Shown here one piece after another: positions 14,328 to 27,652 of a stretch of 43,622 nucleotides of DNA (position 1 is its first letter; each line of letters starts with the position of its first letter). A program made the translations under genes and the position numbers. The notes beneath the pieces were generated by a model. It was given only the letters and a program-made list of their open reading frames with translations. It was not told the origin of the DNA and searched no databases. The stretch is taken from NCBI GenBank assembly GCA_013373175.1, contig JABXII010000001.1, forward strand, positions 1 to 43,622, in the 5' to 3' direction. This stretch comes from Campylobacteraceae bacterium (lineage in GTDB: Bacteria; Campylobacterota; Campylobacteria; Campylobacterales; Arcobacteraceae).

Positions 14328-15425
14328 ATGAAAGGATTATGTTTGTTATTACTTGCAATAAAAGCCATAAAAGCAAATAGGCTAAAGACATCTCTTATAA
14401 TATTAAGTTTGGCTTTATCAATTACTTCTATTTTCTTAATTACTTCTATTTCAAATGGAGTAATTTCTATGTACTCTTCAATGCTAAAAAGTGATGGAGA
14501 TATCATAGTTACTCAAAAAAATATCTCTGATACTTTTTTCTCAAATGTTGATATAAATTTAATAGAGAAAATCAAAACTTTAGATGAAGTTACAAAAGCC
14601 TCAGCTCTTATAGTAGGAGCTTCTATGGTAGAAGAACTTCCTATTGTTGCAGTTTATGGAGTTACAAAAAATAGATTCAAAAACTACAAATTGATACAAG
14701 GTACTTACCCAAAAAAAAATGAAGTTCTTTTAGGAAAATCAATTTATGAAAACCTAGATAGAAAAGATGAAATAAAACTTTCAAATAAAACTTTTAAAGT
14801 CTCTGGTGTTTTTGAAAGCTCTATTGGTTTTGAAAATGGAGGTGCAGTTTTAAATATAGAAGACGCTAGTAAAATCTTTAATAAAAGTGCTTCAATGATT
14901 ATGGTTAACTGTAAAATAGATACAGACATTGAAAAACTTGCACTGAAAATAGACCTTTTTGATAAAGATATTGAAGCAAAATCAACAAGCAATTTTGTTG
15001 ACAATTACAATCAATTTAAGATAATTAAAACCTCATCAAATGTGATTTCATTTATCTCTTTTTGTATGGGACTTTTAACTATTGCTTCAATTTTAAGTAT
15101 CACTATAAATCAAAGAAAAAGTGAATTTGGTATTAAAAGAGCTATAGGAATTTCTATGAAGAAAATCATTTTACAAATAGTTAATGAAGCTCTTATATTA
15201 GGAGTTGTTGGTTTTTTCATAGCTTTAATACTTTCAAACCTTGCACTATTTCTTATAAAAAACAACTCATTTTTACAAGGCTATGTAAATGGTGAGATTT
15301 CACTAGAGATAACTATTTTTATCTTCTTTACAACTCTTACAATCTCTATTTTAGGTTCTATTTTTCCTGCTTTAAATGCCTCAAAAACAGACCCAATTGT
15401 TTTAATCCAAGGAGATAAGATATGA
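14328..15425 (+). CDS. FtsX/MacB-type ABC transporter permease
   Basis: Protein of 365 residues: one N-terminal TM (about 15-38), a periplasmic MacB_PCD-like domain (about 40-225), and three C-terminal TM helices (about 235-355), with the RKSEFGIKRAIG coupling motif at the second block. Such permeases do not move a substrate through the membrane bilayer but transmit force to periplasmic partners or extract lipoproteins and small molecules. The start is uncertain: ATG 14328 has no ribosome site, whereas TTG 14343 is 6 bases after AAAGGA. The stop overlaps the ATPase start (ATGA). It is the first gene of a tightly packed unit. Confidence 0.9.
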   Translation: MKGLCLLLLAIKAIKANRLKTSLIILSLALSITSIFLITSISNGVISMYSSMLKSDGDIIVTQKNISDTFFSNVDINLIEKIKTLDEVTKASALIVGASMVEELPIVAVYGVTKNRFKNYKLIQGTYPKKNEVLLGKSIYENLDRKDEIKLSNKTFKVSGVFESSIGFENGGAVLNIEDASKIFNKSASMIMVNCKIDTDIEKLALKIDLFDKDIEAKSTSNFVDNYNQFKIIKTSSNVISFISFCMGLLTIASILSITINQRKSEFGIKRAIGISMKKIILQIVNEALILGVVGFFIALILSNLALFLIKNNSFLQGYVNGEISLEITIFIFFTTLTISILGSIFPALNASKTDPIVLIQGDKI

Positions 15426-16042
15426 TTACTTTAAAAAATGTATGTAAAAAATATGATAGAGACTTTGCATTAAAAAATATAAATCTAAATATCAAAAAAG
15501 GTTCTTTTGTAGCAATTACAGGAGAGAGTGGTAGCGGTAAAACAACTCTGCTTTCTATCTTATCAACTCTATTAAAACCAAACTCTGGAGAGATTGTTTT
15601 TGAAGATACTCCCTATAAAGAAATTAAAAATATTGATAAGTTTAGACAAGAAAATATTGGTTTTGTTTTTCAATTTCACTATTTAATAAACTATCTAAAC
15701 GTAAAAGAGAACATTCTTCTTGCAAATGAAAAAGCAAGCAAAGAAGAGATAGATAAACTACTTACTATCTTAGAAATACAAAAACTAAAAAACTATTATC
15801 CAAATGAAATTTCAGGTGGTCAAAGACAAAGAGTTGCTATTGCAAGGGCTTTAATAAATAGTCCTAAAGTGATTTTTGCCGATGAACCAACTGGAAATTT
15901 AGATTCAAAAAACTCTTTAAATGTATTTAATCTTTTTAAAACACTTGCAAAAAGTGGTGTAACAATAATTGTTGCAACCCACGATAAAGAACTAGCAAAG
16001 CTTGCTGATATAACACTGGAGGTAAAAGATGGACAGCTTTAA
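15422..16042 (+). CDS. ABC transporter ATPase (LolD/MacB type)
   Basis: Protein of 206 residues. Walker A GESGSGKTT is at about 35-43, the Q-loop FVFQFHYL, signature SGGQRQR, Walker B VIFADEPTGNLD, and H-loop ATHDKE. The length and NLD after Walker B match the LolD/MacB/FtsE group that pairs with FtsX-type permeases. It overlaps the permease by 4 bp and the next gene by 14 bp, so the three are translated in concert. Confidence 0.95.
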   Translation: MITLKNVCKKYDRDFALKNINLNIKKGSFVAITGESGSGKTTLLSILSTLLKPNSGEIVFEDTPYKEIKNIDKFRQENIGFVFQFHYLINYLNVKENILLANEKASKEEIDKLLTILEIQKLKNYYPNEISGGQRQRVAIARALINSPKVIFADEPTGNLDSKNSLNVFNLFKTLAKSGVTIIVATHDKELAKLADITLEVKDGQL

Positions 16043-17591
16043 TATTTTTATAGAAAAACAGTTTAGAGTCTCTTTACTATTTTTCTTTTTAGGACTATTC
16101 TTTGGTATTTTATACTCAATAAATCTACTTGGGGTATTTATTGATTCAACAACACTAAACCCAGTAAATATAAGAAGCTTACATATCTCACTTATGCTTT
16201 ATGGTTTTATTCCACTTATGCTTTCATACTTACCTTTTTTACTTATAAATAAAGAGATTGGTTCTTGTAAAGATGGGCTTTTTTATTTAAATTTATATAC
16301 TATTTTTTGGTATATCTTTTTAATATTTATGATTTCTTCACTTCTATTTGGAAATACAAGAGGTTTGGCTTTTTATGATTTTCCCTATGAACTAAATTTT
16401 ATTTTAAGCCTTTCTGGAGTTTTTTATATCATTGCTTTATATAAATTCATCAAGCAGTACGGAGTAAAACCTTTATGGGTTAAAGTTTCTTTATACATAG
16501 TAATGACTGCTCCTTTTGCACTACTAATTCTTATGAATCCTACAATTGGTCAAGTTGAAAAAACAGTTACTGGACCACATGGAGACAATACACTGGGAAT
16601 GAGCTTTGCTTTAATTCCTATTTATTTTTTAATCATCAAACTTCTAAGTGAAAATGTGTTTAAAGCTAGATGGAATATTCTTTGGATTACTCCTTTATTC
16701 TTTTATATTATCTCAGTTCTTTATAGAAGTTTTATAGGAGAGTTAACTTATAACCAAGAGTGGTTTTTTCAATATCTTACACTCCTTTATGTACCACTTT
16801 TATATAGATGGTATCAAGATGCTCAAATTGAAAGGTTTGCAAAACTAGCACTTCTTATTTCTATTGCTTCTTTTCTTTTTGTAGATATTGAAGGAAATAT
16901 TCTATTTATTCCAGAAATTAGATGGATATTTCACAGAAATGATTTAATTGTAGCTCATGCTCACGTTGCTATGGGAATTTCAGTTTTCTTTATGGTGATT
17001 TCAATGTTTGTTTCTCATATAAAAGAGTTACAAACATTAAAATTTTATAGCTTTTATCTTTTTGGTCTTATAGGGATTTTCACTGTTTTATCTCTAAGTG
17101 GATTTGTTCAAGCAGGAGTTTTAAATGCTTCTATTCATAATTTTTGGATTGCAAGAACTATCTTTGGTATTTTTACTTTTCTTTCAGTACTAGCTTTTTT
17201 AAATATAAAATATCAATTTACAAACTTACAAAAGTATAACCTTTTTGGCTTTTTAAGTGATGGTTTAGGCGGAGTGTTTTTAATCCTTCTTGCTAGCTTT
17301 ATCTATCCAAGTTTAAACTTTAGTTTTGAAGGAAAATATGAATATATAGTTTTTGCTTTTGTAAGTATGACAGGACTTATTCACTTCTTAGCTTTAAAGT
17401 ATAAAGAGTATGAATCAATTCTTACAAAACTAACTGTTTTTATTAGAGTTTTTATTAGTTCACTATTTTTCTCTCTTTATACAGCAGGAACATTAGAAAT
17501 TGTTGCATTATTTATATCAGCCTTTGATATTTCAATGGTGGTTTTTTATCTACTTTATTTTTATAAAAAGGAGCAGTTATGCAAAAATTAG
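16029..17591 (+). CDS. Divergent heme-copper oxidase subunit I-like membrane protein lacking helix VII di-histidine
   Basis: Protein of 520 residues with about 12-14 TM helices. Seen: R49-x2-H52 in NIRSLHISLMLYGF (helix II low-spin heme ligand pattern), GPH184GDNTLGM (placed like the helix VI CuB ligand of cbb3 enzymes), and H310-A-H312 in VAHAHVAMG (helix X pair for high- and low-spin hemes, with NorB-like flanks). Not seen: the helix VII HH; the matching stretch reads LYRSFIGELTYNQEW. CcoN and NorB families require that pair for CuB or FeB. So it probably binds heme but may not be a normal O2 or NO reductase. Strong GGAGG site inside the ATPase end; overlaps the next gene by 13 bp. Subunits II/III or cytochrome c partners are absent nearby. 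Confidence 0.75.
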   Translation: MDSFNIFIEKQFRVSLLFFFLGLFFGILYSINLLGVFIDSTTLNPVNIRSLHISLMLYGFIPLMLSYLPFLLINKEIGSCKDGLFYLNLYTIFWYIFLIFMISSLLFGNTRGLAFYDFPYELNFILSLSGVFYIIALYKFIKQYGVKPLWVKVSLYIVMTAPFALLILMNPTIGQVEKTVTGPHGDNTLGMSFALIPIYFLIIKLLSENVFKARWNILWITPLFFYIISVLYRSFIGELTYNQEWFFQYLTLLYVPLLYRWYQDAQIERFAKLALLISIASFLFVDIEGNILFIPEIRWIFHRNDLIVAHAHVAMGISVFFMVISMFVSHIKELQTLKFYSFYLFGLIGIFTVLSLSGFVQAGVLNASIHNFWIARTIFGIFTFLSVLAFLNIKYQFTNLQKYNLFGFLSDGLGGVFLILLASFIYPSLNFSFEGKYEYIVFAFVSMTGLIHFLALKYKEYESILTKLTVFIRVFISSLFFSLYTAGTLEIVALFISAFDISMVVFYLLYFYKKEQLCKN

Positions 17592-18553
17592 CCCTAGTAT
17601 TTTTTATTGCTTTTGAGTTATGTTATTACTTACTTATTGCACAAACAGGTATTGTTGAGCATTTAGCCTCAAATATCTTTGTTATAGCACCACTTCCTAT
17701 TGGAGGTGTTATTGGTTCAATATTAAGTTTTTATATAAAGACTTCAAATAAAAACAAGATATTTTCATTTTTGCTTATTCAATTAGCAGTTAGTTTTTTT
17801 TATCCAAATTTAAATGCCCTACTTTTATTTATACTTGGAATAAGTGTTGGAGCTTTAGCACCGTTATTAATAAATGAACTAAAAAAAGCCTCAAATATAC
17901 AATTAGGTTTTGCCCTTTGTATTTCATATGCTTTAGGAACTTTTCTTTTCACATATGAAGCTTCAAAAAGAGGTTCTATTGCAATAATCTTTACTATAAT
18001 TGCCCTACTTTCATCACTATTTTTAAATCAAAAAGAGAATAAAGATTTAACAAGCAATAACTATTCATACTCACTATTTGTGATGGTTCTTTGGATTTTC
18101 CTTGATTCAACTTTGTTTGAAACTCTTTCAAGGGATTTAAGCACTTCTATTTGGAGAGATGGTTTTACTTTAGAAATAATTGTTTTTCACCTAATTGGAG
18201 TTGTTAGTGCTTTTTATATAAAGATAGAGAAAACACAAAAAGAGCTTTTAATTTTAACTCTTTTTGCCCTTTCATACCTACTTTATTTCTTACATGAAGC
18301 ATTTATCTTATCACTTGTTTATCCTTTTGTAATCTCATTTTACAATGTAGTAATACTTCAAACAATTGTAAAAAAAGAGTTAAAAGTGCTTGGTATTTAT
18401 ATGGTATTTATAGGTTGGGCTGCATCTGGTGCTGGATTATTTGTGGCTTTAGAAAATTTAACTTACTTTGTTCCAGTTATATTCTTAGTATGCATAATCA
18501 AAATCTTAGCTACACAACAATCACAAAAAAAGGAGTTACCATGGTTAAATTAG
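17579..18553 (+). CDS. Multi-pass membrane protein, possibly MFS-like
   Basis: Protein of 324 residues with about ten hydrophobic helices separated by short loops and few conserved polar motifs; GGVIGSILSFY and GISVGALAPLL resemble MFS-type glycine patterns. I cannot name the substrate. It overlaps the heme-copper-oxidase-like gene by 13 bp with an AAGGAG site inside that gene, and its own end overlaps the next gene by 13 bp, so it belongs firmly to this unit. It could be a transporter or a non-heme partner subunit of the upstream protein. Confidence 0.7.
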   Translation: MQKLALVFFIAFELCYYLLIAQTGIVEHLASNIFVIAPLPIGGVIGSILSFYIKTSNKNKIFSFLLIQLAVSFFYPNLNALLLFILGISVGALAPLLINELKKASNIQLGFALCISYALGTFLFTYEASKRGSIAIIFTIIALLSSLFLNQKENKDLTSNNYSYSLFVMVLWIFLDSTLFETLSRDLSTSIWRDGFTLEIIVFHLIGVVSAFYIKIEKTQKELLILTLFALSYLLYFLHEAFILSLVYPFVISFYNVVILQTIVKKELKVLGIYMVFIGWAASGAGLFVALENLTYFVPVIFLVCIIKILATQQSQKKELPWLN

Positions 18554-19074
18554 TATTTATATTCTTATTTACTGGGATTTTAAGTTTTGTAAATGCCCAA
18601 GACTTAAAATTTGTAGATGGAAAAATCAAAGCACACACAGAGGTCTTTGGGGATAGTAGTATTAACCCATATACTAAAGATATCTATTCTCATTTGTATA
18701 TTGATAATAGTATTGATTCACTAAAAGGAACTATCTTTTTAACAACTTTTTCACTACATAGTGACAATGAAAAAAGAGACTTGCATATGTATGAAACTTT
18801 ACACTCTAAAGAGTTTCCTCATATCTCTTATAGAATAGATTCTATAAAAAAAATTGATGATGTGTTTTTAATAAAAGGATTTCTTTTCTTAAATGGTTTA
18901 GAAAAAGAAGTTAGTACAATAGCAAAAATAGAAGATAAAAATAACCATTTAGTTTTAGATGGAAACTTCTGTATTAAATTAACATCATTCAATCTTGAAC
19001 CACCAACAATGTTTTTTCTAACAGTTAGAGATCAAATAGATATCTCTTATCACTTAGATTATATAAAAGGATAG
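18541..19074 (+). CDS. YceI-like periplasmic lipid-binding protein
   Basis: Protein of 177 residues with a signal peptide (MVKLVFIFLFTGILSFVNAQ, cleavage near 20) and a YceI-like lipocalin domain: KIKAHTEVFG, then LYIDNSIDSLKGTIFL, the RDLHMYETLHSKEFPHISY block and a closing GLEKEVSTIAKI region. YceI proteins bind polyisoprenoids or similar lipids in the periplasm. ATG 18541 with AAGGAG is inside the preceding gene. Next to a quinol-oxidase-like fold, a quinone- or isoprenoid-binding role is tempting but unproven. One Cys is present in the mature part. Confidence 0.82.
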   Translation: MVKLVFIFLFTGILSFVNAQDLKFVDGKIKAHTEVFGDSSINPYTKDIYSHLYIDNSIDSLKGTIFLTTFSLHSDNEKRDLHMYETLHSKEFPHISYRIDSIKKIDDVFLIKGFLFLNGLEKEVSTIAKIEDKNNHLVLDGNFCIKLTSFNLEPPTMFFLTVRDQIDISYHLDYIKG

Positions 19075-19078
19075 ATTG

Positions 19079-19528
19079 ATGAAAAAAATTATTCTACTTC
19101 TTACTTTTGTAATTTGTGCTTTTTCACATGAATTACTTGTAAATGAAAAAATATCTAACTTCTCTTTAGCTAACCAGTTTGATGAAAAGAAAACAATTGA
19201 TGAAAATATAACTACAATAATTGTCTCTTTTGAAAAAGGAACAGGAAAAGAAGTAAATGAGTTTTTAGCTCAAAAAGACTCTAACTTTCTAAAAGAGCAC
19301 AATGCTATTTTTATAGCAAATATCTCAGGTATGCCTATGTTTATTACAAAAATGTTCGCTTTACCTAAGATGAAAAACTATAAACATGAAATTCTTTTAA
19401 TCTATGATGAAAAAGATGATAGATTTAAAGCAAAAGATGGAATGTCAACTCTTTATCGCCTGAAAAATGGTGTAATAAAAAGTATTGAATTTATTTCAAA
19501 AGATGATTTAGAAAAAGTTTTTCTATGA
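19079..19528 (+). CDS. Exported thioredoxin-fold-like protein of unknown function
   Basis: Protein of 149 residues with a signal peptide (about 1-17, ending AFSHE). A region NFSLANQFDEKKTI looks like the start of AhpC/TSA-type redoxin domains, followed by a strand TTIIVSFEK where CxxC would be expected, but no active-site cysteines exist. A short FALPKM segment lies near residue 92. So it has the likely fold but not the redox centre. ATG 19079 preferred over the TTG just before it (AGGA upstream). It overlaps the next gene by 4 bp. Confidence 0.65.
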   Translation: MKKIILLLTFVICAFSHELLVNEKISNFSLANQFDEKKTIDENITTIIVSFEKGTGKEVNEFLAQKDSNFLKEHNAIFIANISGMPMFITKMFALPKMKNYKHEILLIYDEKDDRFKAKDGMSTLYRLKNGVIKSIEFISKDDLEKVFL

Positions 19529-20238
19529 AACCAACAAAGTTAGAAATAAAAAATCTTAACGTAAAAGCTAAGAATTTGCAGGGTTTGCAAATTCTTCACT
19601 TAAGTGACTTGCATATAAACAAAACAACAAAAATAGAAGATATTAAAAAATTAGTAAGCTTTTGCAATGACATAGAATATGACTTTTTAGCCCTTACAGG
19701 AGATATTATTGATTGTAAAGCAGACAAAATAATACCTCAACTTGAAGCTTTAAATCTTTTGAAAAAGGTATTTTATATAAGTGGTAACCATGATATATTT
19801 TATGGAATAAAGAGATTAAAAACTCTTTTAACAAACTTTACTTTTCTAGATAATAAAACCATTTTTATAAAATACCAAAATAAAGAGATTGCCCTTGCTG
19901 GAATAAGTGACAGATTCTCAAAGTTTTTTAAAATACAAAGAGAAGAAAAAAAAGTCTTTGAATTTTTAAAAAACAATGAAGACTCAATCTTACTTGCCCA
20001 TCAACCAAAAGATTACTCTTTAGCAGTAAATTCAAATACTAAACTTTTCTTATGTGGACATACACATGGAGGTCAAATTTTCCCTTTTCATTATTTTGTA
20101 AAACTTTTCCAACCTTTTTTAGCAGGAATTTTTTATAAAAAAAACACTTGTATTTATGTAAATAAAGGGCTAGGAACTTGGGGTATTGATTTTAGATATA
20201 AAGCAGATAGTGAAATAACTCTTTTAAAGTTATGTTAA
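19525..20238 (+). CDS. Calcineurin-like metallophosphoesterase (YkuE-like)
   Basis: Protein of 237 residues with no signal or membrane anchor. Motifs are HLSDLHI, LTGDIIDC, SGNHDIF, LAHQPK, CGHTHGGQIFPF and YVNKGLGTWG, covering all metal ligands. It resembles the catalytic half of the membrane-anchored protein at 4901 but lacks its N-terminal 140 residues. It is the last gene of the overlapping unit (4-bp overlap with the thioredoxin-fold gene). Substrate unknown. A 109-bp gap without terminator hairpin separates it from eptA. Confidence 0.88.
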   Translation: MKPTKLEIKNLNVKAKNLQGLQILHLSDLHINKTTKIEDIKKLVSFCNDIEYDFLALTGDIIDCKADKIIPQLEALNLLKKVFYISGNHDIFYGIKRLKTLLTNFTFLDNKTIFIKYQNKEIALAGISDRFSKFFKIQREEKKVFEFLKNNEDSILLAHQPKDYSLAVNSNTKLFLCGHTHGGQIFPFHYFVKLFQPFLAGIFYKKNTCIYVNKGLGTWGIDFRYKADSEITLLKLC

Positions 20239-20347: not shown

Positions 20348-21958
20348 ATGAAAAAAATCTCGCAATACAAGCTTATAATTTATATATCTTTACTATTTAC
20401 AGTTTTCTACAATTTCTCATTTTTTAGAAATTTTTCTTTAGCATATAGTTTTACTGGCATTAACATACTTTATACAATAAGTATATTTTTCACTCTGTTT
20501 TTATTTATAAGTTTTGTATTATCTTTACTTAGTTCAAGATATTATATAAAACCCTTTTTAATTATTCTACTAATGGTTTCATCTTTTACCGCTTATTTTA
20601 TGGATACTTATAATGTGATTATAGATAAAGAAATGATTAGAAATGCATTGGAAACAAATCTAAATGAAAGCCTTGATTTATTTAGTTTCCAGTTAGTTTT
20701 ATATGTGATATTTTTAGGAATAATTCCAAGTTTTTTAGTTTATAAAACAAATATTGATTATGGTTCATTTAAGAAAGAGAGTTTTAGAAAAATAAAAACT
20801 CTACTATTAATTTTACTTCTTATTGTTATTACACTTTTTAGTACAAGTAAATTTTACACCTCTTTTTTTAGAGAACATAAAACACTTAAATATTATGCAA
20901 ATCCTACATACTGGATGTTTGCCATAGTAAATTATACAAAGAAGACATATTTTACTGGAAAAATTATTGTTAAAAAAACTGGGGATGATGCACTTATTGA
21001 TGAAACACCTGAACATAAAAAAGAGCTAATTGTAATGGTAGTAGGGGAAGCAACTAGAGCAGATAGATTCTCTTTAAATGGATATAAAAGAGATACAAAC
21101 CCACTTTTAGAAAAAGAAGAAGTATATAACTTCTCAAATATGTCATCATGTGGAACTTCTACTGCATACTCTGTTCCTTGTATGTTTTCTAAATTTACAA
21201 GAGATAACTATAGTCATAGTAAAGCCGTATCAAATGAAAATTTACTTGATGTTTTAAAACATACAAAAGATGTAAATATACTATGGAGAGATAATAACTC
21301 TTCTTCTAAAGGTGTTGCAGTAAGAGTAAAGTATGAGGATTATAAATCTAAAGATTTAAATACTATTTGTGAAAATGGCGAATGTAGAGATGAAGGAATG
21401 TTAGTAGGTTTAGATAAATTTATAAAAGATAGTAAAAGTGAAGATATCTTTATTATCTTACATCAAATGGGAAATCATGGACCTGCATATTATAAAAGAT
21501 ATCCAAAAAGATTTGAAAAGTTTAAACCTATTTGTAAAACAAACCAATTAGAAAAGTGTACAAAAGAAGAAATTTCAAATGCCTATGATAATGCAATATT
21601 GCATACTGATTACTTCTTATCACAAGTAATAGATTTTCTAAAACCATATTCAAATAAATATGATACTGCTATGTTTTATATGAGTGACCATGGAGAAAGT
21701 CTTGGGGAAAATGGAATATACCTTCATGGAATGCCTTATTTTATGGCTCCAAAAGAGCAAACTCATGTAGCATCACTTATGTGGTTTGGAGATAGTATGA
21801 AAAGACAATTGGATTTAAATAAATTAAATAGTATAAAAAATAATGATTTTTCTCAAGATAACTTATTTCACACTATTCTTGGATTATTTGAAGTGCAAAC
21901 AGATGCTTACAATAAAAGCCTTGATATATTATCAACTATTAGAAAAGAGCAAAAATGA
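20348..21958 (+). CDS. eptA: Lipid A phosphoethanolamine transferase (EptA family)
   Basis: Protein of 536 residues. Five TM helices occupy about 1-175, then a periplasmic alkaline-phosphatase-fold domain. Motifs are GEATRADRFSLNGY (metal Glu), CGTSTAYSVPCMFS (catalytic Thr in CGTST and disulfide Cys), two further Cys pairs (ICENGEC, ICKTNQLEKC), and MSDHGESLGENG with later YLHGMPY. It moves phosphoethanolamine from PE to lipid A, lowering surface charge; it shares these motifs with MCR enzymes, as the whole family does. Good AAAGGA site. It overlaps dgkA by 4 bp. A TATAAA -10 lies upstream; control by the two-component system at 23373 is a guess. Confidence 0.93.
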   Translation: MKKISQYKLIIYISLLFTVFYNFSFFRNFSLAYSFTGINILYTISIFFTLFLFISFVLSLLSSRYYIKPFLIILLMVSSFTAYFMDTYNVIIDKEMIRNALETNLNESLDLFSFQLVLYVIFLGIIPSFLVYKTNIDYGSFKKESFRKIKTLLLILLLIVITLFSTSKFYTSFFREHKTLKYYANPTYWMFAIVNYTKKTYFTGKIIVKKTGDDALIDETPEHKKELIVMVVGEATRADRFSLNGYKRDTNPLLEKEEVYNFSNMSSCGTSTAYSVPCMFSKFTRDNYSHSKAVSNENLLDVLKHTKDVNILWRDNNSSSKGVAVRVKYEDYKSKDLNTICENGECRDEGMLVGLDKFIKDSKSEDIFIILHQMGNHGPAYYKRYPKRFEKFKPICKTNQLEKCTKEEISNAYDNAILHTDYFLSQVIDFLKPYSNKYDTAMFYMSDHGESLGENGIYLHGMPYFMAPKEQTHVASLMWFGDSMKRQLDLNKLNSIKNNDFSQDNLFHTILGLFEVQTDAYNKSLDILSTIRKEQK

Positions 21959-22308
21959 GAAATCAACCAAAATATAATTTTATAAAAAATACTTCATATG
22001 CAATTAATGGATTAAAAGATTTAATAAAAAGTGAAAGTTCATTTAAAATTGAACTTCTCTTTGCAATTATTCTTTTGCCCACTATATTTTTTGTTGATGA
22101 ATCAATAACAAATAAACTACTTCTATTTATCACTTTTAGTGGTGTTTTACTAGCTGAAATAATAAATAGCGCCATTGAAAGAACTGTTGATTTAGTAACT
22201 TTGGAATTCCATCACATGGCAAAAAGAGCAAAAGATGTTGGAAGTGCCATTGTTTTTATAAGCATCGCTATTTGTACAATAACTTGGTTAGTCATTTTAT
22301 TAAATTAA
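21955..22308 (+). CDS. dgkA: Diacylglycerol kinase
   Basis: Small integral membrane kinase of 117 residues with three TM helices and the active-site motif EIINSAIERTVDLV. It phosphorylates diacylglycerol to phosphatidic acid. The 4-bp overlap with eptA makes sense: transfer of phosphoethanolamine from PE leaves diacylglycerol, which this enzyme recycles. The gene ends 5 bp from a convergent transporter, with no hairpin seen. Confidence 0.95.
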   Translation: MRNQPKYNFIKNTSYAINGLKDLIKSESSFKIELLFAIILLPTIFFVDESITNKLLLFITFSGVLLAEIINSAIERTVDLVTLEFHHMAKRAKDVGSAIVFISIAICTITWLVILLN

Positions 22309-22313
22309 TATGA

Positions 22314-23282
22314 TTATTTGCCAAATTTAACTAAAAGGATTAAACCAAATATTGTCAAAAATATTCCAAATAGACTAGTCACACTTGGAGCTAAGGCTGA
22401 TAAGAAAATCATCTCTGCAATCAATGCAAAAAAAACTTCCCCTGATTGAGAAGCATCTACAATCACAAGTTTTGAGGAACTAGTAGCAATACTTCTGGCA
22501 TACAAAAATAAAGAAGTTGCAATAACCCCTGATAGTAAAGAAACCATTGCTACACTTATAAACTGACCACTTGAAGGAAGGGTAGGTTCTGTTATAAAAA
22601 AAAGAACCACCCAAAAAGGGAAAGAACCTAAAGTTAGTAAAAATACTTTTGCAAAGGCATTGTTTAAAATAGTATTTGAAGAGTTATTCTCTTTTCTTCT
22701 TTTTTTTTCTTCCCAGATTAACTGATTTCCTAAAGGATAAGAAAAAGCGGCAATAATAACAGGTATAAAACCTAAAAGAAGTAAATCAAGGCTATCCATA
22801 CTAAAATGCCCTAGATTTACAATTGTTACTCCAATAAAAACTATAATAGTAAAAACCCAAGTTAGTTTAGATACTCTTTTTCCAAAGAAAAAAAGAACTA
22901 TTAGTGAAGCTATAATTGTTAATTGCCAAGTTGTAGCAACTACCCAACCAGGAGAAAAATCAGAAGCATAACAAATCATTGAATAAAAAAATCCAAAACC
23001 TATGGTTCCACTTATAGTATAAAACCAAAATCTGTTTATATAATCTTTTAAAATCTTTTTAAAATAATCAAAGTCCTTAAAAAATATAAAACCTAAGGCT
23101 AAAAATAAAACAGTGTAAAAAAATCTTAATGATGCAGTCCAATACCAATGACCACCTTCTAATGATATTGCTCTATTAATAACAAAGGTTGCACTAAAAA
23201 ATAGTGCTGCAAGTAACCCAATAACTAAAAGATATAAAGGACTTTTTTCATAACTATTCATTGTTTTTATAAATCTATTCAA
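22314..23282 (-). CDS. DMT-superfamily multidrug-efflux-like transporter (EmrE type)
   Basis: Protein of 322 residues with about ten TM helices, two EamA-like halves. GHWYWTASLRFFYTV near the start and ASQSGEVFFALIAEM near the end fit the PF13536-type multidrug resistance efflux group rather than classical EamA. The long middle loop EEKKRRKENN is cytoplasmic. Substrate unknown. It is divergent from the response regulator at 23373 and shares that 90-bp promoter region. Confidence 0.85.
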   Translation of the reverse strand: MNRFIKTMNSYEKSPLYLLVIGLLAALFFSATFVINRAISLEGGHWYWTASLRFFYTVLFLALGFIFFKDFDYFKKILKDYINRFWFYTISGTIGFGFFYSMICYASDFSPGWVVATTWQLTIIASLIVLFFFGKRVSKLTWVFTIIVFIGVTIVNLGHFSMDSLDLLLLGFIPVIIAAFSYPLGNQLIWEEKKRRKENNSSNTILNNAFAKVFLLTLGSFPFWVVLFFITEPTLPSSGQFISVAMVSLLSGVIATSLFLYARSIATSSSKLVIVDASQSGEVFFALIAEMIFLSALAPSVTSLFGIFLTIFGLILLVKFGK

Positions 23283-23334
23283 ATATTTTCCTAATAAAAA
23301 ATTCTATCTGTTTATTTTTAATCTAAAATAATCG

Positions 23335-23366
23335 TTCATTTTATATTCATATTATTGTAATATAAT
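23335..23366 (+). promoter_or_regulatory. Promoter of the two-component operon with tandem TTCAT repeat
   Basis: TTCAT at 23335-23339 and again at 23346-23350 (11-bp period) precede a perfect TATAAT at 23361-23366. Only six bases separate that -10 from the ATG at 23373, so the message is predicted to be leaderless. The 11-bp direct repeat fits an OmpR-type regulator and suggests autoregulation. Confidence 0.55.
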
Positions 23367-23372
23367 TTTGTT

Positions 23373-24041
23373 ATGAAAATTTTAATTATTGAAGATGATG
23401 AAAAAATTATTAACTTTTTAAAAAAAGGTCTTGAAGAAGAATCTTATAGTGTAGATTACTCATTAAATGGAGATGAGGGTATTTACTTAGCAAGTGTAAA
23501 TAGCTATGATTTAATACTTCTAGATATAATGCTTCCTATAAAAGATGGTATAGAAGTATGCAAAACCCTAAGAAACAATTCTATATACACTCCTATTATA
23601 ATGCTTACTGCAAAAGATTCTATAGAAGACAAAATCAAAGGCTTAGATATTGGAGCAAATGATTATTTAGCTAAACCTTTTTCATTTAGTGAACTACTAG
23701 CTAGAATAAGAGTGCAACTAAGACCTACTAATCAAAATCAAACAACTCTAAAATTAGCTGATTTAGAATTAGATTTATTAACTAAAACAGCAAAAAGAGG
23801 TGAAGATACTATAAATCTTACAGCAAAAGAGTTTGCCCTATTAGAGTTTTTAATAAAAAATAAAAACAAAGTTCTATCAGAAAGTGTTATTAGTTCTTCT
23901 TTAAGTAATATGGATGACATGAACATGAGTAATGTTGTAAATGTATATATTTATAGACTAAGAAATAAAATTGATAAGCCATATGAAAAGAAACTTATCA
24001 AAACAATTAGAGGTTTAGGGTTTAAAATAAGTGATGACTAA
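23373..24041 (+). CDS. OmpR/PhoB-family response regulator
   Basis: Protein of 222 residues. Receiver domain 1-120 with acidic pair EDD, phospho-acceptor in YDLILLDIMLP, Thr in MLTAKD and Lys in LAKPF; winged-helix DNA-binding domain about 125-220 with VVNVYIYRLRNKID and TIRGLGFKI. No ribosome site; the promoter geometry implies a leaderless mRNA. Overlaps the kinase gene. Targets unknown; eptA two genes away and its own promoter are candidates. Confidence 0.95.
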   Translation: MKILIIEDDEKIINFLKKGLEEESYSVDYSLNGDEGIYLASVNSYDLILLDIMLPIKDGIEVCKTLRNNSIYTPIIMLTAKDSIEDKIKGLDIGANDYLAKPFSFSELLARIRVQLRPTNQNQTTLKLADLELDLLTKTAKRGEDTINLTAKEFALLEFLIKNKNKVLSESVISSSLSNMDDMNMSNVVNVYIYRLRNKIDKPYEKKLIKTIRGLGFKISDD

Positions 24042-25404
24042 TCTATCAATTAAAAGAAAACTTCTTATTTATAATATCTTTATTCAAGTATTAATTTTAA
24101 TGCTTTTTTCATTTTCAATTTATAAAACTTTGGAAGTATCCTCAAAGGATAAATTAGAAGCCACATTAAAAGTGATTTTACTTGATATTACAGATGATAT
24201 TATAGAGCATAAAGAAGAGCTTAATACAAGAGAGTTTGATGAAGAAAAAGAGTATAAGTTTGAACCTTTATATATAAGACTTTTAAAAAAAGAAGATAGT
24301 TATAAAGAGATAAAAAATACAAACTTTCCAAGTGATATTAAAATAAAAAACAAAGACTTAAACGCTCTTACTTTAAATCAAATAAAATTCGAATATAAAG
24401 AGCACTATATAATTAGTAGATTAAAAATCCAAATGGATAAAAACTATTATATTCTTGAAGTTGCAACAAACTTCTCTGCTGTAAACTCTACACTAGAAAA
24501 CCTAGTTTATATTTTGCTATTTATAGTTCCTATTATTTTAATTTTATCTATTATTGGAGGATACTTCTTAATATATAAATCTTTTTTACCTATTGAAAAA
24601 CTACTTCAAAATTTAAAAAGTATTAATGCAAGTGATTTATCAAAAAGATTAGAATCAAAAAATAAAAATGATGAAATAGATTTATTGTCTCAAGAGATAA
24701 ACAATCTTTTACAAAGACTGCAAATATCATTTGAGAAGATTTCTCAGTTTAGTTCAGATGCTTCCCATGAATTAAAAACACCCCTTACAATTATTAGAGG
24801 AGAAATAGAAATAGCTTTAAGAAAAGATAGAGAATCAAGTGAATATAAAGATACTTTATCAAACTGCTTAGATGAACTTATTACTATACAACAAACAATT
24901 GATGATTTACTATTTTTAGCTAAAAATGAACATGAAGTTTTAGAGAAAAAAGAAGAAGAGATATATTTAGATGAAGTTTCTCTTGAAGCCTATAAAGAGA
25001 TGCAAGCTTTTGCTAAATTAAAAAATATCAACCTTGAATGTCAAATAAAAGAACCTCTACAAATAAAGGGTCATCACAAGCTATTAAAGATAGCCTTAAA
25101 AAATATCTTAAAAAATGCCATTACTTTTAGCCATGAAAACTCTATAGTAACTATTTCAATCTATAAAGATAATGATAAACAAATCATTTGCATAGAAGAT
25201 AAGGGAATTGGTATTTCAAAAAAAGATCAAGAAAAAATCTTTGATAAATTTTATAGAACAGATAAAAGTAGAAATAAAGAGTCTGGTGGAACTGGGCTTG
25301 GAATGTCAATTGTTGAAAAGATTATAAAGATTCATAAAGGAGAGATAAAACTTCAAAGTGAAGAGAATCTTGGAACTAAAGTATATTTTATATTTAGAGG
25401 TTAA
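24034..25404 (+). CDS. Sensor histidine kinase
   Basis: Protein of 456 residues: TM1 about 10-30, a periplasmic domain of about 130 residues, TM2 about 162-188, HAMP to about 240, HisKA with DASHELKTPLTIIRGE, and HATPase with KNILKNAITFS, EDKGIGIS and GGTGLGMSI. Classical partner of the overlapping response regulator. Start taken as ATG 24034; a GTG three bases earlier is possible. Ligand unknown. The next gene starts 3 bp after the stop. Confidence 0.95.
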   Translation: MTNLSIKRKLLIYNIFIQVLILMLFSFSIYKTLEVSSKDKLEATLKVILLDITDDIIEHKEELNTREFDEEKEYKFEPLYIRLLKKEDSYKEIKNTNFPSDIKIKNKDLNALTLNQIKFEYKEHYIISRLKIQMDKNYYILEVATNFSAVNSTLENLVYILLFIVPIILILSIIGGYFLIYKSFLPIEKLLQNLKSINASDLSKRLESKNKNDEIDLLSQEINNLLQRLQISFEKISQFSSDASHELKTPLTIIRGEIEIALRKDRESSEYKDTLSNCLDELITIQQTIDDLLFLAKNEHEVLEKKEEEIYLDEVSLEAYKEMQAFAKLKNINLECQIKEPLQIKGHHKLLKIALKNILKNAITFSHENSIVTISIYKDNDKQIICIEDKGIGISKKDQEKIFDKFYRTDKSRNKESGGTGLGMSIVEKIIKIHKGEIKLQSEENLGTKVYFIFRG

Positions 25405-25407
25405 AAA

Positions 25408-26988
25408 ATGGACATTAGAAAAGTAGTAAAAATAAGTTTTATATTGATTGTTTTATCTATAATCGCTATATTTTCAATAAATAGCATAGTTCTTGTAAAA
25501 TTAAATGAAAACCAAAGTTCTCAAAAACAAATCTCAAATCTTGTTCTTACACAAGAAAATATGAATCTTCTTGTAGAAGATATTATTAATTCAAAAAGTA
25601 TTGAACAACTAAAAGAAATCAAAAAAGAGTTTCATAAAAATGAAATGGCCTTTGAAAAAATTCTTTCTGAAATTTTAATAGAAGATAAAGACGATACTTT
25701 AGACTTATTTATTCAAGATATTCATAAACACCCTGTTATCTCAAAACATTTACAACTGCTTTCTAAATCAGAAAAAAACATTGAAGAGAAGTTTGACATA
25801 ATTTTTAATCTACAAAAAAGAAAAATAGAATTAGATGAACTTTTTAAAATAAATTATCCAAATGAAAGCAAAAGTAGAAAAAGTATAGAAAAACAAATTT
25901 TAAAAACTAAAAATGTTGAGCTTATTCAACAATTTTCAGACATAAAATACTATAGCAAAGAAGTTCTTTTTCAACACAAAAATAGTAAATACTTAAATAT
26001 TTGGTTAGAGAAAGCAAAACTATTAAGCCAAAACTATAATAATGAAAAATTAGAAAAGTACATAAAAGTTTTTAATAAAGTTGCAAACTATGTTTTACAG
26101 CTAGAAGAAGTAAAAAGCAAAGAGATTGAAACACAATCAAAAATTGACAATATAATTAAGAATAATAAAAAATTAAACACAACTATAGAACAAGAGATTG
26201 AAACTCTTTCAACAAATTTTATCAAATCTGCTTATTCTTTGATTATTACATTACTTGTTATTACTATTATTTTTATAATCTACTTAGCTTTTAAAGTAAA
26301 TAGAAATGTTGCTCTTAGTTTTAATGAAGTTGAGGAAAAAGTAGAAGACGGATTAAAAACTATTAAAAAATTAAACCATGAGATAGAGAATACTCAAAAA
26401 GAAGTTGTTTTTACTATGGGTGCAATTGGAGAAAGTAGAAGTAAAGAAACAGGGAACCATGTAAAAAGAGTAGCTGAGTACTCTAAACTATTAGCTTTAT
26501 ATTATGGTCTTTCTAAAGAAGAAGCAGAACTTTTAAAACAAGCAAGTCCTATGCATGATATAGGAAAAGTTGCCATTCCTGATTCTATTTTAAACAAACC
26601 TGGAAGGTTTGATGACAAAGAGCGTGAAGTTATGAATACCCATGCAAAACTTGGTTATGAAATGCTAAAACACTCAAACAGAGCTCTTTTAAAAGCTGCT
26701 GCTATTGTCTCTTTAGAACACCATGAAAAATGGGATGGAACAGGTTATCCAAAAGGATTAAAAGGTGAAGAGATTCATATTTATGGAAGAATCACTGCTA
26801 TTGCTGATGTCTTTGATGCCTTAGGAAGTGATAGATGTTATAAAAAAGCTTGGGAAGATGAAAAGATATTCAAACTTTTCAAAGAAGAAAAAGCAAAACA
26901 TTTTGACCCTAAATTAGTTGATATCTTTTTTGAAAACCTAAATGAATTTTTAGAGATTAGAAATAAATTTAAAGATACGGAAGAATAA
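25408..26988 (+). CDS. Membrane HD-GYP-domain protein (cyclic-di-GMP phosphodiesterase)
   Basis: Protein of 526 residues. TM1 about 8-30, a helical periplasmic sensor of about 240 residues, TM2 about 272-292, a short coiled coil and an HD-GYP domain (about 335-520): MHDIGKV holds the HD pair and EHHEKWDGTGYPKGLKGEEI the HHxxxDGxGYP region, followed by IADVFDALGSDRCYK. These enzymes break down c-di-GMP. It sits directly behind the two-component genes and before cytochrome b561, all one transcript by spacing (3 bp and 1 bp gaps). Confidence 0.94.
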   Translation: MDIRKVVKISFILIVLSIIAIFSINSIVLVKLNENQSSQKQISNLVLTQENMNLLVEDIINSKSIEQLKEIKKEFHKNEMAFEKILSEILIEDKDDTLDLFIQDIHKHPVISKHLQLLSKSEKNIEEKFDIIFNLQKRKIELDELFKINYPNESKSRKSIEKQILKTKNVELIQQFSDIKYYSKEVLFQHKNSKYLNIWLEKAKLLSQNYNNEKLEKYIKVFNKVANYVLQLEEVKSKEIETQSKIDNIIKNNKKLNTTIEQEIETLSTNFIKSAYSLIITLLVITIIFIIYLAFKVNRNVALSFNEVEEKVEDGLKTIKKLNHEIENTQKEVVFTMGAIGESRSKETGNHVKRVAEYSKLLALYYGLSKEEAELLKQASPMHDIGKVAIPDSILNKPGRFDDKEREVMNTHAKLGYEMLKHSNRALLKAAAIVSLEHHEKWDGTGYPKGLKGEEIHIYGRITAIADVFDALGSDRCYKKAWEDEKIFKLFKEEKAKHFDPKLVDIFFENLNEFLEIRNKFKDTEE

Positions 26989-26989
26989 A

Positions 26990-27652
26990 ATGAAATCATA
27001 TATTTGGACACTCCCTACTAGAGTTTTTCACTGGCTATTTGCCTCTTTTATGTTAATTGTTTTTTTAACTGATGATGATAAACTTTTAAAATACCATGCA
27101 ATTGTAGGTTATTCAATTTTAATTCTTATATTTTTTAGGCTTTTTTGGGGATACTTTGGACCAAAATACTCTAAATTTAAAGACTTCAATGCAAACAAAA
27201 AAAGTATCAAAGAGTTTATGAAAAATCTATTTAGCAAAAATCAAAACTACGTAGGACATAACCCTTTAGCTTCACTTGTTATGCTTGGAATGTTTATTTT
27301 CTCATTACTAGCTATCTTTACAGGCATCGTTACTTATGGAGTTGAAGAACATAAAGGTATTTTGTCTTTTTTAAATAGCTCATTTTTCAAAAGCTTTGAT
27401 GATATCCACGAATTTTTTGCAAATTTTATTATCTTTTTAGTTGTACTTCATTTAGCTGGTATTTTTATTGATAAAGTTTTACATGCAAAACATGAAACAC
27501 TAAACTCAATTTTCACAGGATATAAAAAATTTGATACAAAAGAAGATATAAAATTAAATATTTTTCAAAAAATAATAGCCTTAGTATTTTTTATAGCTTT
27601 TACCTTATTTACTCTTTACAATCTCTTCTTCAATAGTATTTTAATAAATTAA
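26990..27652 (+). CDS. Cytochrome b561 family protein
   Basis: Protein of 220 residues with about five TM helices. Heme-ligand candidates are H14 in TRVFHWLFA, a His in LLKYHAIVGY, and two in DDIHEFFAN and VVLHLAGIF; the pattern fits di-heme cytochrome b561 or hydrogenase cytochrome-b-type proteins. It should carry electrons across the inner membrane between quinones and a periplasmic partner. Its position after an HD-GYP gene is unusual. A hairpin follows. Confidence 0.9.
   Translation: MKSYIWTLPTRVFHWLFASFMLIVFLTDDDKLLKYHAIVGYSILILIFFRLFWGYFGPKYSKFKDFNANKKSIKEFMKNLFSKNQNYVGHNPLASLVMLGMFIFSLLAIFTGIVTYGVEEHKGILSFLNSSFFKSFDDIHEFFANFIIFLVVLHLAGIFIDKVLHAKHETLNSIFTGYKKFDTKEDIKLNIFQKIIALVFFIAFTLFTLYNLFFNSILIN

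Follow-up and report, generated by a model that had tools for sequence, protein, structure and literature searches.

An overlapping gene unit of Campylobacterota around a protein with a predicted heme-copper-oxidase fold and without the conserved second-metal histidines

The stretch of DNA analyzed here (the window) is a 43,622-nt part of contig JABXII010000001.1 from a Campylobacteraceae bacterium (GCA_013373175.1), and at positions 14328-20238 it carries seven confirmed open reading frames (ORFs), every one on the plus strand, which encode the two parts of an ATP-binding cassette (ABC) transporter, a 520-aa membrane protein related to the heme-copper oxidases, and four further proteins. Comparison with other genomes revealed that these closely overlapping genes are conserved as a module in Campylobacterota, among free-living relatives of Campylobacter, and that its core consists of the ABC transporter, the oxidase-fold protein, a protein of the major facilitator superfamily (MFS) fold and a YceI protein. 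The first two genes encode an FtsX/MacB-type permease (365 aa, 14328..15425) and a LolD/MacB-type ATPase (206 aa, 15422..16042). They are followed by the gene of the 520-aa protein (16029..17591), recognized from its family profile, an AlphaFold2 (AF2) model and the alignment columns of the metal ligands, and by that of a compact membrane protein of 324 aa (17579..18553), assigned to no Pfam family and recognized as MFS-like from its AF2 model. The remaining three encode a YceI-family lipocalin with a signal-like N-terminus (177 aa, 18541..19074), an exported-looking protein of approximately 150 aa, in whose alignment no Cys is conserved (19079..19528), and a calcineurin-like metallophosphoesterase (19525..20238). 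ATG was taken as the start codon of both the YceI gene, for which the ORF list has an earlier TTG, and the 150-aa gene, for which TTG at 19076 is an alternative.

The junctions between these genes are, in order, overlaps of 4, 14, 13 and 13 bp, a gap of 4 bp and an overlap of 4 bp. An earlier note on the window had described seven adjoining genes with these overlaps, and every ORF and junction was borne out by the ORF coordinates. In comparison with the nearest relative found, the L048 locus of Malaciobacter halophilus, where the 520-aa protein is 95% identical to that of the window, the ratio of non-synonymous to synonymous substitution rates (dN/dS) is 0.06-0.19 across all seven genes. For L049 the ratios are 0.14-0.37, except that of the phosphoesterase (0.60), the best match of which in that locus is only 37% identical and may be a different gene. 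Sites found in a scan for promoters and terminators were no commoner than in shuffled sequences (51 vs. a mean of 56.2; 1 vs. a mean of 2.1).

Relatives of the 520-aa protein were collected by a pattern scan of 84,980 species, which gave 102 relatives, and the figures below rest on 80 of these. The scan used two short patterns that distant relatives would escape, so other phyla may hold the protein as well. The loci L028-L047 and L048-L127 share some genomes and counts of neighbor clusters include duplicates; the linkage counts take only the window and L048-L127. Flanks longer than 4 kb on the upstream side of the 520-aa gene and 4.5 kb on its downstream side were available in 50 of these 81 loci. 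In all 50 the gene is accompanied by the FtsX permease and the MFS-like protein. The ATPase was found in 48 by the ORF caller and in the other two (L074 and L106) by tblastn, and the YceI gene in 48 by the ORF caller and in L106 by tblastn, giving 50/50 and 49/50, respectively. The core is therefore complete in 49 of the 50 loci, the exception (L088) lacking only YceI. The 150-aa protein was found in 35 loci by the ORF caller and in L104 by tblastn (36/50), and the metallophosphoesterase in 30/50 by the ORF caller alone, its misses not having been rechecked with tblastn. Both are thus frequent additions to the module and not constant members. Of the seven-gene membership proposed in the earlier note, the phosphoesterase is the weaker part, but the view of one joint unit is supported: the neighborhood is kept, the overlaps recur, the 520-aa and MFS-like families have the same presence pattern, and homologs of the 520-aa protein were not scattered but had conserved neighbors.

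The junctions were counted in the window and the 80 relatives, with start codons picked by a script near the model-predicted start. The permease and ATPase genes meet at exactly -4 in 60 of 67 pairs, and overlaps were found in 72 of the 74 ATPase/520-aa pairs, 64/68 of the 520-aa/MFS pairs and 54/69 of the MFS/YceI pairs. The YceI and 150-aa genes overlap in just three of 22 pairs, the distance between them being 20 nt or less in all 22. Gene order differs among the loci, MFS-YceI being sometimes located ahead of the permease, and the 150-aa gene may be first, after the 520-aa gene, last, or absent. Where the alternative order brings the 150-aa gene next to the permease, the junction is again -4 (24/26). 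On a quick tree of 54 rows, made without bootstrap, ten changes were counted in the place or presence of the 150-aa gene and one in the place of the MFS gene.

Of 149 genomes sampled from the order, 17 have the 520-aa protein; a sample of 249 from the whole phylum contained it in 24, every one a member of that same order. The MFS-like family was found in these 17 genomes and in no others of the 149, although its match is split in two in G020 and runs over one stop in G114. The titles of the 80 relatives carry Campylobacterota names, save one "Proteobacteria" and one "bacterium" metagenome-assembled genome, which place beside Sulfurospirillum and Arcobacter rows in the tree. The genera include Malaciobacter, Arcobacter, Poseidonibacter, Sulfurospirillum, Sulfurimonas, Sulfuricurvum, Sulfurovum and Nitratifractor, and a plasmid search gave no relatives. 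Sulfurospirillum arcachonense (L068) has an Arcobacter-like copy, 69% identical to that of the window vs. 53-54% for the other Sulfurospirillum copies, which suggests horizontal transfer of the unit. These data also bear on the view that unrelated envelope genes merely lie together by chance in a compact genome, with which the coming and going of the phosphoesterase and the 150-aa protein would agree. The core, however, is whole in nearly every complete locus, also after rearrangement. Chance clustering of the core is not reasonable, because the neighbors are kept, the overlaps recur, the 520-aa and MFS-like proteins have the same presence pattern and the order has been rearranged, and we regard it as highly improbable.

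The central protein of the unit is not easily recognized from a single sequence. It scores 21.7 bits against the Pfam COX1 model, below the cut-off of 34.8, and a search of the PDB with this sequence gave no match up to E 10. Among its homologs, however, 21 of 22 match COX1 at E≤1 (best E 5.6e-12), and the only match up to E 1 between a profile of 54 members and the PDB was CcoN of R. capsulatus (E 1.7e-4). The AF2 model has a predicted local distance difference test score (pLDDT) of 88.1 and a predicted TM-score (pTM) of 0.87. Its best Foldseek matches are CcoN subunits of cbb3 oxidases (E 3.5e-6, TM-scores 0.54-0.57), NorB of the cNOR nitric oxide (NO) reductases being matched as well, and the best seven rows of the VIA comparison gave Z 25.1-27.5 over 357-369 residues, with Z 27.5 to cNOR 4xyd over 359. 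Residues 1-393 form the oxidase core, and four extra predicted helices follow (399-517). The predicted structure is thus clearly that of a heme-copper-oxidase subunit I. The heme-copper-oxidase-like character proposed in the earlier note holds for the fold, the single sequence staying below the Pfam cut-off. In a quick superfamily tree of 58 rows, one of them faulty, the family formed its own branch (SH-aLRT 92); long branches gave rise to warnings, and the tree was used just to call the family separate. The genome of the window has one other COX1-family protein over the cut-off (at C36), and proteins of this kind, separate from the 520-aa protein, were found in 29 of 31 genomes of relatives.

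Two alignments of the family were used: A1 holds the window and 21 of 25 other loci, and A2 the window and 53 of the 80 relatives. A2 is without 27 relatives (L054, L056, L058, L059, L061, L062, L076, L078, L083, L090, L091, L097-L100, L103, L104, L108-L110, L113, L114, L116, L117, L123, L125, and L127). L083 was excluded for a stop codon in the match, L090, L091 and L099 were feared to read past a stop, and the remaining ones (close relatives, partial sequences, length of the list) were chosen by hand without set criteria; L088 was shortened so that it ends ahead of its stop. Metal-ligand columns were read from a joint alignment of 54 family members with heme-copper oxidase proteins of the same order, 44 of them valid. 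One wrong-strand row, L136, is among the 22 CcoN rows, the 45 comparison rows and the 58 tree rows, and all counts of 44 exclude it. The stability of the register was followed in 56 resampled alignments with different settings (16 CcoN-only, 24 mixed and 16 NOR-only).

The three heme-ligand histidines, one in transmembrane helix (TM) 2 and two in TM10, are present in 54/54 family members and 44/44 comparison proteins. In the window they are His52 (codon 16182..16184, plus strand), at the position of the TM2 low-spin heme ligand, and His310 and His312 of the motif His310-Ala-His312 (16956..16964, plus strand), at the positions of the high-spin and low-spin heme ligands. His52 fell on the TM2 ligand column in every resampled alignment where the marker motif was found, and His310 and His312 on the heme columns in 56/56. 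The columns of the second metal look different. In TM6, the column of the copper-ligand His, which reads His in 40 and Leu in four of the 44 comparison proteins, is Asp in 54/54 family members. This residue, Asp186, is part of His184-Gly-Asp186 (16578..16586, plus strand), in which both His184 and Asp186 are invariant, and it held the TM6 column in 16/16 CcoN-only and 20/24 mixed alignments, the column being gapped in 15/16 NOR-only ones. The His-His pair of TM7, found in 44/44 comparison proteins, is replaced in the family by a variable residue (position 232, His in 12/54) and an Arg (54/54), which is Arg233 in the window (codon 16725..16727, plus strand), in or near the metal-ligand columns. 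Here the register is uncertain by one or two residues: Arg233 took the second His column in 15/24 mixed but only 1/16 CcoN-only alignments, Tyr232 stood there in 11/16 CcoN-only ones, and the NOR-only alignments were mostly gapped. In no register, however, did the alignment of the 54 members contain a conserved His pair near TM7. Judged from these alignments, the family has kept the heme sites, and the known second-metal (CuB/FeB) histidine site is gone.

Heme-copper oxidases are defined by a binuclear heme-metal site. As the heme histidines are kept and the second-metal histidines are not conserved, the 520-aa protein probably does not act as a usual reductase of oxygen or NO. It might be proposed that it is nevertheless an active O2 or NO reductase with a non-canonical second metal site formed by Asp186, His184 and others, the other genes of the unit serving to supply or protect it. 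Its nearest folds are indeed the cbb3 oxidase and cNOR, the two TM6 residues are strictly invariant, and in gNOR-type NO reductases an Asp replaces one His. Furthermore, four oxidase-family proteins of the same order (L170-L173), which we take to be possibly a gNOR-like group, read Leu in the TM6 column (WWGLDLVADG) yet keep the TM7 His-His. Against this stands the lack of a conserved His near TM7, as well as the separate COX1-family proteins in the genome of the window and in most genomes of its relatives. In addition, the domain scan, which covered the seven proteins of the unit and eight flanking ones (on the upstream side only glsA; on the downstream side eptA, dgkA, the EmrE-type transporter, both two-component proteins, the HD protein and the cytochrome b561), found no c-type cytochrome, oxidase subunit II, CcoO/CcoP or NorC, as the earlier note had stated of the standard respiratory partners. 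Compared with CcoN and the cNOR subunit NorB, the 520-aa protein shares the oxidase core, the three heme histidines and the pattern EG...H...D....H.H before and in TM10, but differs in the missing second-metal histidines, the four extra helices, the lack of partner subunits among the scanned proteins and its own branch in the quick tree. We therefore consider such a reductase unlikely.

It is also conceivable that the oxidase fold was turned into a membrane-embedded, quinol-driven peroxidase whose substrates would be lipid or quinone hydroperoxides delivered by the ABC transporter and the YceI protein. In DyP-type heme peroxidases, a pair of Asp and Arg performs acid-base catalysis, and the copper-less distal site over the high-spin heme would hold Asp186, possibly together with Arg233, as such a pair. 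If this were true, the module would be a dedicated machine for the repair of membrane-lipid peroxides built on a heme-copper oxidase, but we consider the idea very doubtful.

The transporter of the unit belongs to the LolD/MacB class, members of which are known, as established for LolCDE, to lift hydrophobic substrates from membranes. The permease matches Pfam MacB_PCD with 66.4 bits (cut-off 27) and FtsX with 62.4 bits (cut-off 25.5), its nearest solved relatives being the 5xu1 permease, MacB and LolC, and the ATPase matches ABC_tran with 125 bits and is nearest to LolD (2pcj, E 9.4e-48). Although the ATPase is closest to LolD and the permease has MacB_PCD and FtsX, both remain far below the curated NCBIfam scores (54.4 of 362.45 bits for LolC/E and 198.8 of 307.75 for LolD), which sets the unit apart from LolCDE/LolDF and MacB. 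Another Lol-like permease of the genome (C3) scores 271.3 bits vs. 44.5 for that of the unit, both under the curated cut-off, and with this better candidate elsewhere the transporter of the unit is probably not the general lipoprotein releaser.

In the Campylobacter P19/Fet iron system and in HrtBA heme export, MacB-type ABC transporters act with membrane or small periplasmic proteins. By analogy with such units, in which a MacB-type ABC transporter is accompanied by membrane redox and small periplasmic proteins, the genes described here might serve metal or heme trafficking, and the permease with MacB_PCD and FtsX does lie beside a partner of heme-binding fold. The likeness to P19/Fet and HrtBA consists of an FtsX/MacB-type ABC transporter whose genes share a unit with those of further membrane or small periplasmic proteins. 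There is, however, no FTR1 or P19 domain among the scanned proteins and no CxxC protein was seen among those of the unit. No HrtB is found among the 13 PDB matches of the permease up to E 1, in a library whose content for HrtB was unchecked, and HrtBA-like heme export was not retained as a candidate. Trafficking of this kind seems improbable to us.

The other four proteins of the unit could be characterized to different degrees. The AF2 model of the 324-aa protein (pLDDT 92.6) has a compact MFS fold, with VIA Z 24.7 over 302 residues and a Foldseek E of 7.8e-5 to NorA, so that the MFS-like identity given in the earlier note is upheld by predicted structure; at the level of sequence, no Pfam MFS model was listed for 43 members at E≤0.1 and no PDB match was found. 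The identity of the YceI protein was likewise confirmed (Pfam YceI 40.2 bits, cut-off 23.7; E. coli YceI 1y0g, E 7.6e-4). Two YceI genes elsewhere in the genome match the Pfam model much better (161 and 156 bits) than does that of the unit (40 bits). The 150-aa protein had been described as a cysteine-less exported redoxin. It is exported-looking, and 33 sequences of its family have neither CxxC nor a conserved Cys, but the thioredoxin fold gained no support: there was no thioredoxin-type or convincing Pfam match in the 33 members and no match in a PDB profile search, and hhalign aligned the profile with an AhpC/redoxin set over just 15 columns at E 0.056, unrelated controls giving E 0.088-0.18. 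The thioredoxin identity was accordingly not adopted.

The metallophosphoesterase is recognized from the Metallophos match (50.9 bits) and the metal-binding motifs GD, GNHD and GHTHGG, which are invariant in 14 aligned sequences, in agreement with its earlier identification. It is nearest to YaeI (91.4 bits, cut-off 188) and LpxG, below the cut-offs of both. A 304-aa Lactamase_B_2 protein is encoded near the unit in L085 (12977-13891, minus strand) and in 28 more loci, some of them duplicates of the same genome and mostly of Sulfuricurvum or Sulfurovum type. Of the 50 full loci, 30 have only the phosphoesterase, 14 only the Lactamase_B_2 protein, none both and six neither. Mutual replacement of the two was not separable from descent (independent-pairs p 1, with too few pairs). 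Also a 374-aa protein without a Pfam match is encoded upstream on the same strand in L125 (6654-7778) and in 18 more loci, some of them duplicates, mainly of Sulfuricurvum.

In the window the unit is flanked on the same strand by glsA, which ends 72 bp upstream, and eptA, which starts 109 bp downstream. Within 20348-25404, eptA, dgkA and an opposite-strand EmrE-type transporter (22314-23282) separate the phosphoesterase from a two-component pair (23373-25404). The close relative L048 has a pair of similar sizes immediately after its phosphoesterase, and the eptA, dgkA and EmrE-type genes of the window therefore look inserted or moved. The pair is followed by an HD_5 protein and a cytochrome b561 (25408-27652); the latter, at 26990-27652, lies approximately 6.8 kb downstream of the unit, which has no b561 gene inside. 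In 12 loci the b561 family recurs at a distance of no more than 10 kb from the unit, and small cytochrome-c-like proteins (CxxCH) are also encoded in several of these loci.

The two-component pair could be related to the unit if the 520-aa protein were a gas or redox sensor, in which a five-co-ordinate heme would bind NO, CO or O2 and gate the ABC and MFS transporters or the two-component system encoded after the unit in Arcobacteraceae. The retained ligand of the high-spin heme together with the lost ligands of the second metal would suit a sensor, and a pair of regulator and kinase size comes directly after the phosphoesterase in several loci, including L028-L032, L036 and L048. In the displayed Sulfuricurvum and Sulfurovum loci and in most Sulfurimonas loci, however, no pair of such sizes, judged by size and strand only, directly follows the unit, and the domain scan found no signaling domain in the 520-aa protein. 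The pair was not accepted as a member of the unit, as the loci where it comes next are mainly of Arcobacteraceae type, and its role may lie with the nearby eptA or cytochrome genes. A sensor accordingly appears to us a rather unlikely role.

A closer parallel is offered by the lipid peroxyl radical system of LcoA and BcnA. The genes of the cytochrome b561 LcoA and the YceI lipocalin BcnA are described as linked or fused in many bacteria, lcoA and bcnA mutants as having more lipid peroxidation, and a homolog as binding ubiquinone-8, and the authors propose that LcoA re-reduces the quinone carried by BcnA (PMC9113575). The unit is similar in encoding a YceI lipocalin together with a membrane protein predicted to hold two b hemes, and it differs in adding ABC and MFS genes and in having no b561 of its own. 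The LcoA-BcnA parallel, the two-heme protein beside YceI and the LolD/MacB-class transporter together lead us to favor, tentatively and as a possibility still open to considerable doubt, the handling of quinones or lipid radicals at the periplasmic face by the unit. Gene arrangement, fold, loss of the metal ligands and linkage are shown here, whereas the function is inferred, as was the quinone, heme or lipid handling suggested in the earlier note.

Several observations weigh against quinone or lipid-radical handling. LcoA is a cytochrome b561 and thus of another fold than the oxidase-fold partner in the unit, and its quinone role is itself only the proposal of the authors (PMC9113575). YceI proteins need not bind quinone, and the genome has four YceI genes (C21, C18, C5, and C24). 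As to the 520-aa protein, hhalign against CcoN of the same order gave E 0.0011 but put the probability at only 20%, with a faulty row (L136) among the 22 of CcoN, and residues 176-181, just ahead of Asp186, have a pLDDT below 50 in the model.

In this favored reading, the 520-aa protein would be a quinol-linked di-heme b electron carrier and not a usual terminal oxidase or NO reductase. As proposed for LcoA with BcnA, it would reduce or oxidize, at the periplasmic face, an isoprenoid quinone, a lipid radical or a hydroperoxide held by the YceI protein. Extraction of this lipid or quinone out of the membrane would be the task of the ABC transporter, and a small amphiphile of related kind would be moved by the MFS protein. 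Overall, the envelope would be protected or supplied with quinone.

The earlier note knew of no named system with this composition, and a literature search, with the full text of most subscription journals outside its scope, likewise found neither the unit nor an oxidase family lacking the second metal site described. While each part can be placed in a known family or fold, their combination and this branch of the oxidases look undescribed. A family keeping both heme sites without the known metal ligands, and regularly encoded beside an FtsX-type ABC transporter, a compact MFS protein and a YceI lipocalin, would show that the heme-copper oxidase fold has been recruited beyond the usual reduction of O2 or NO. 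In addition, the operon offers a starting point for studying what YceI proteins and orphan MacB/LolD-type transporters do, a question not yet settled.

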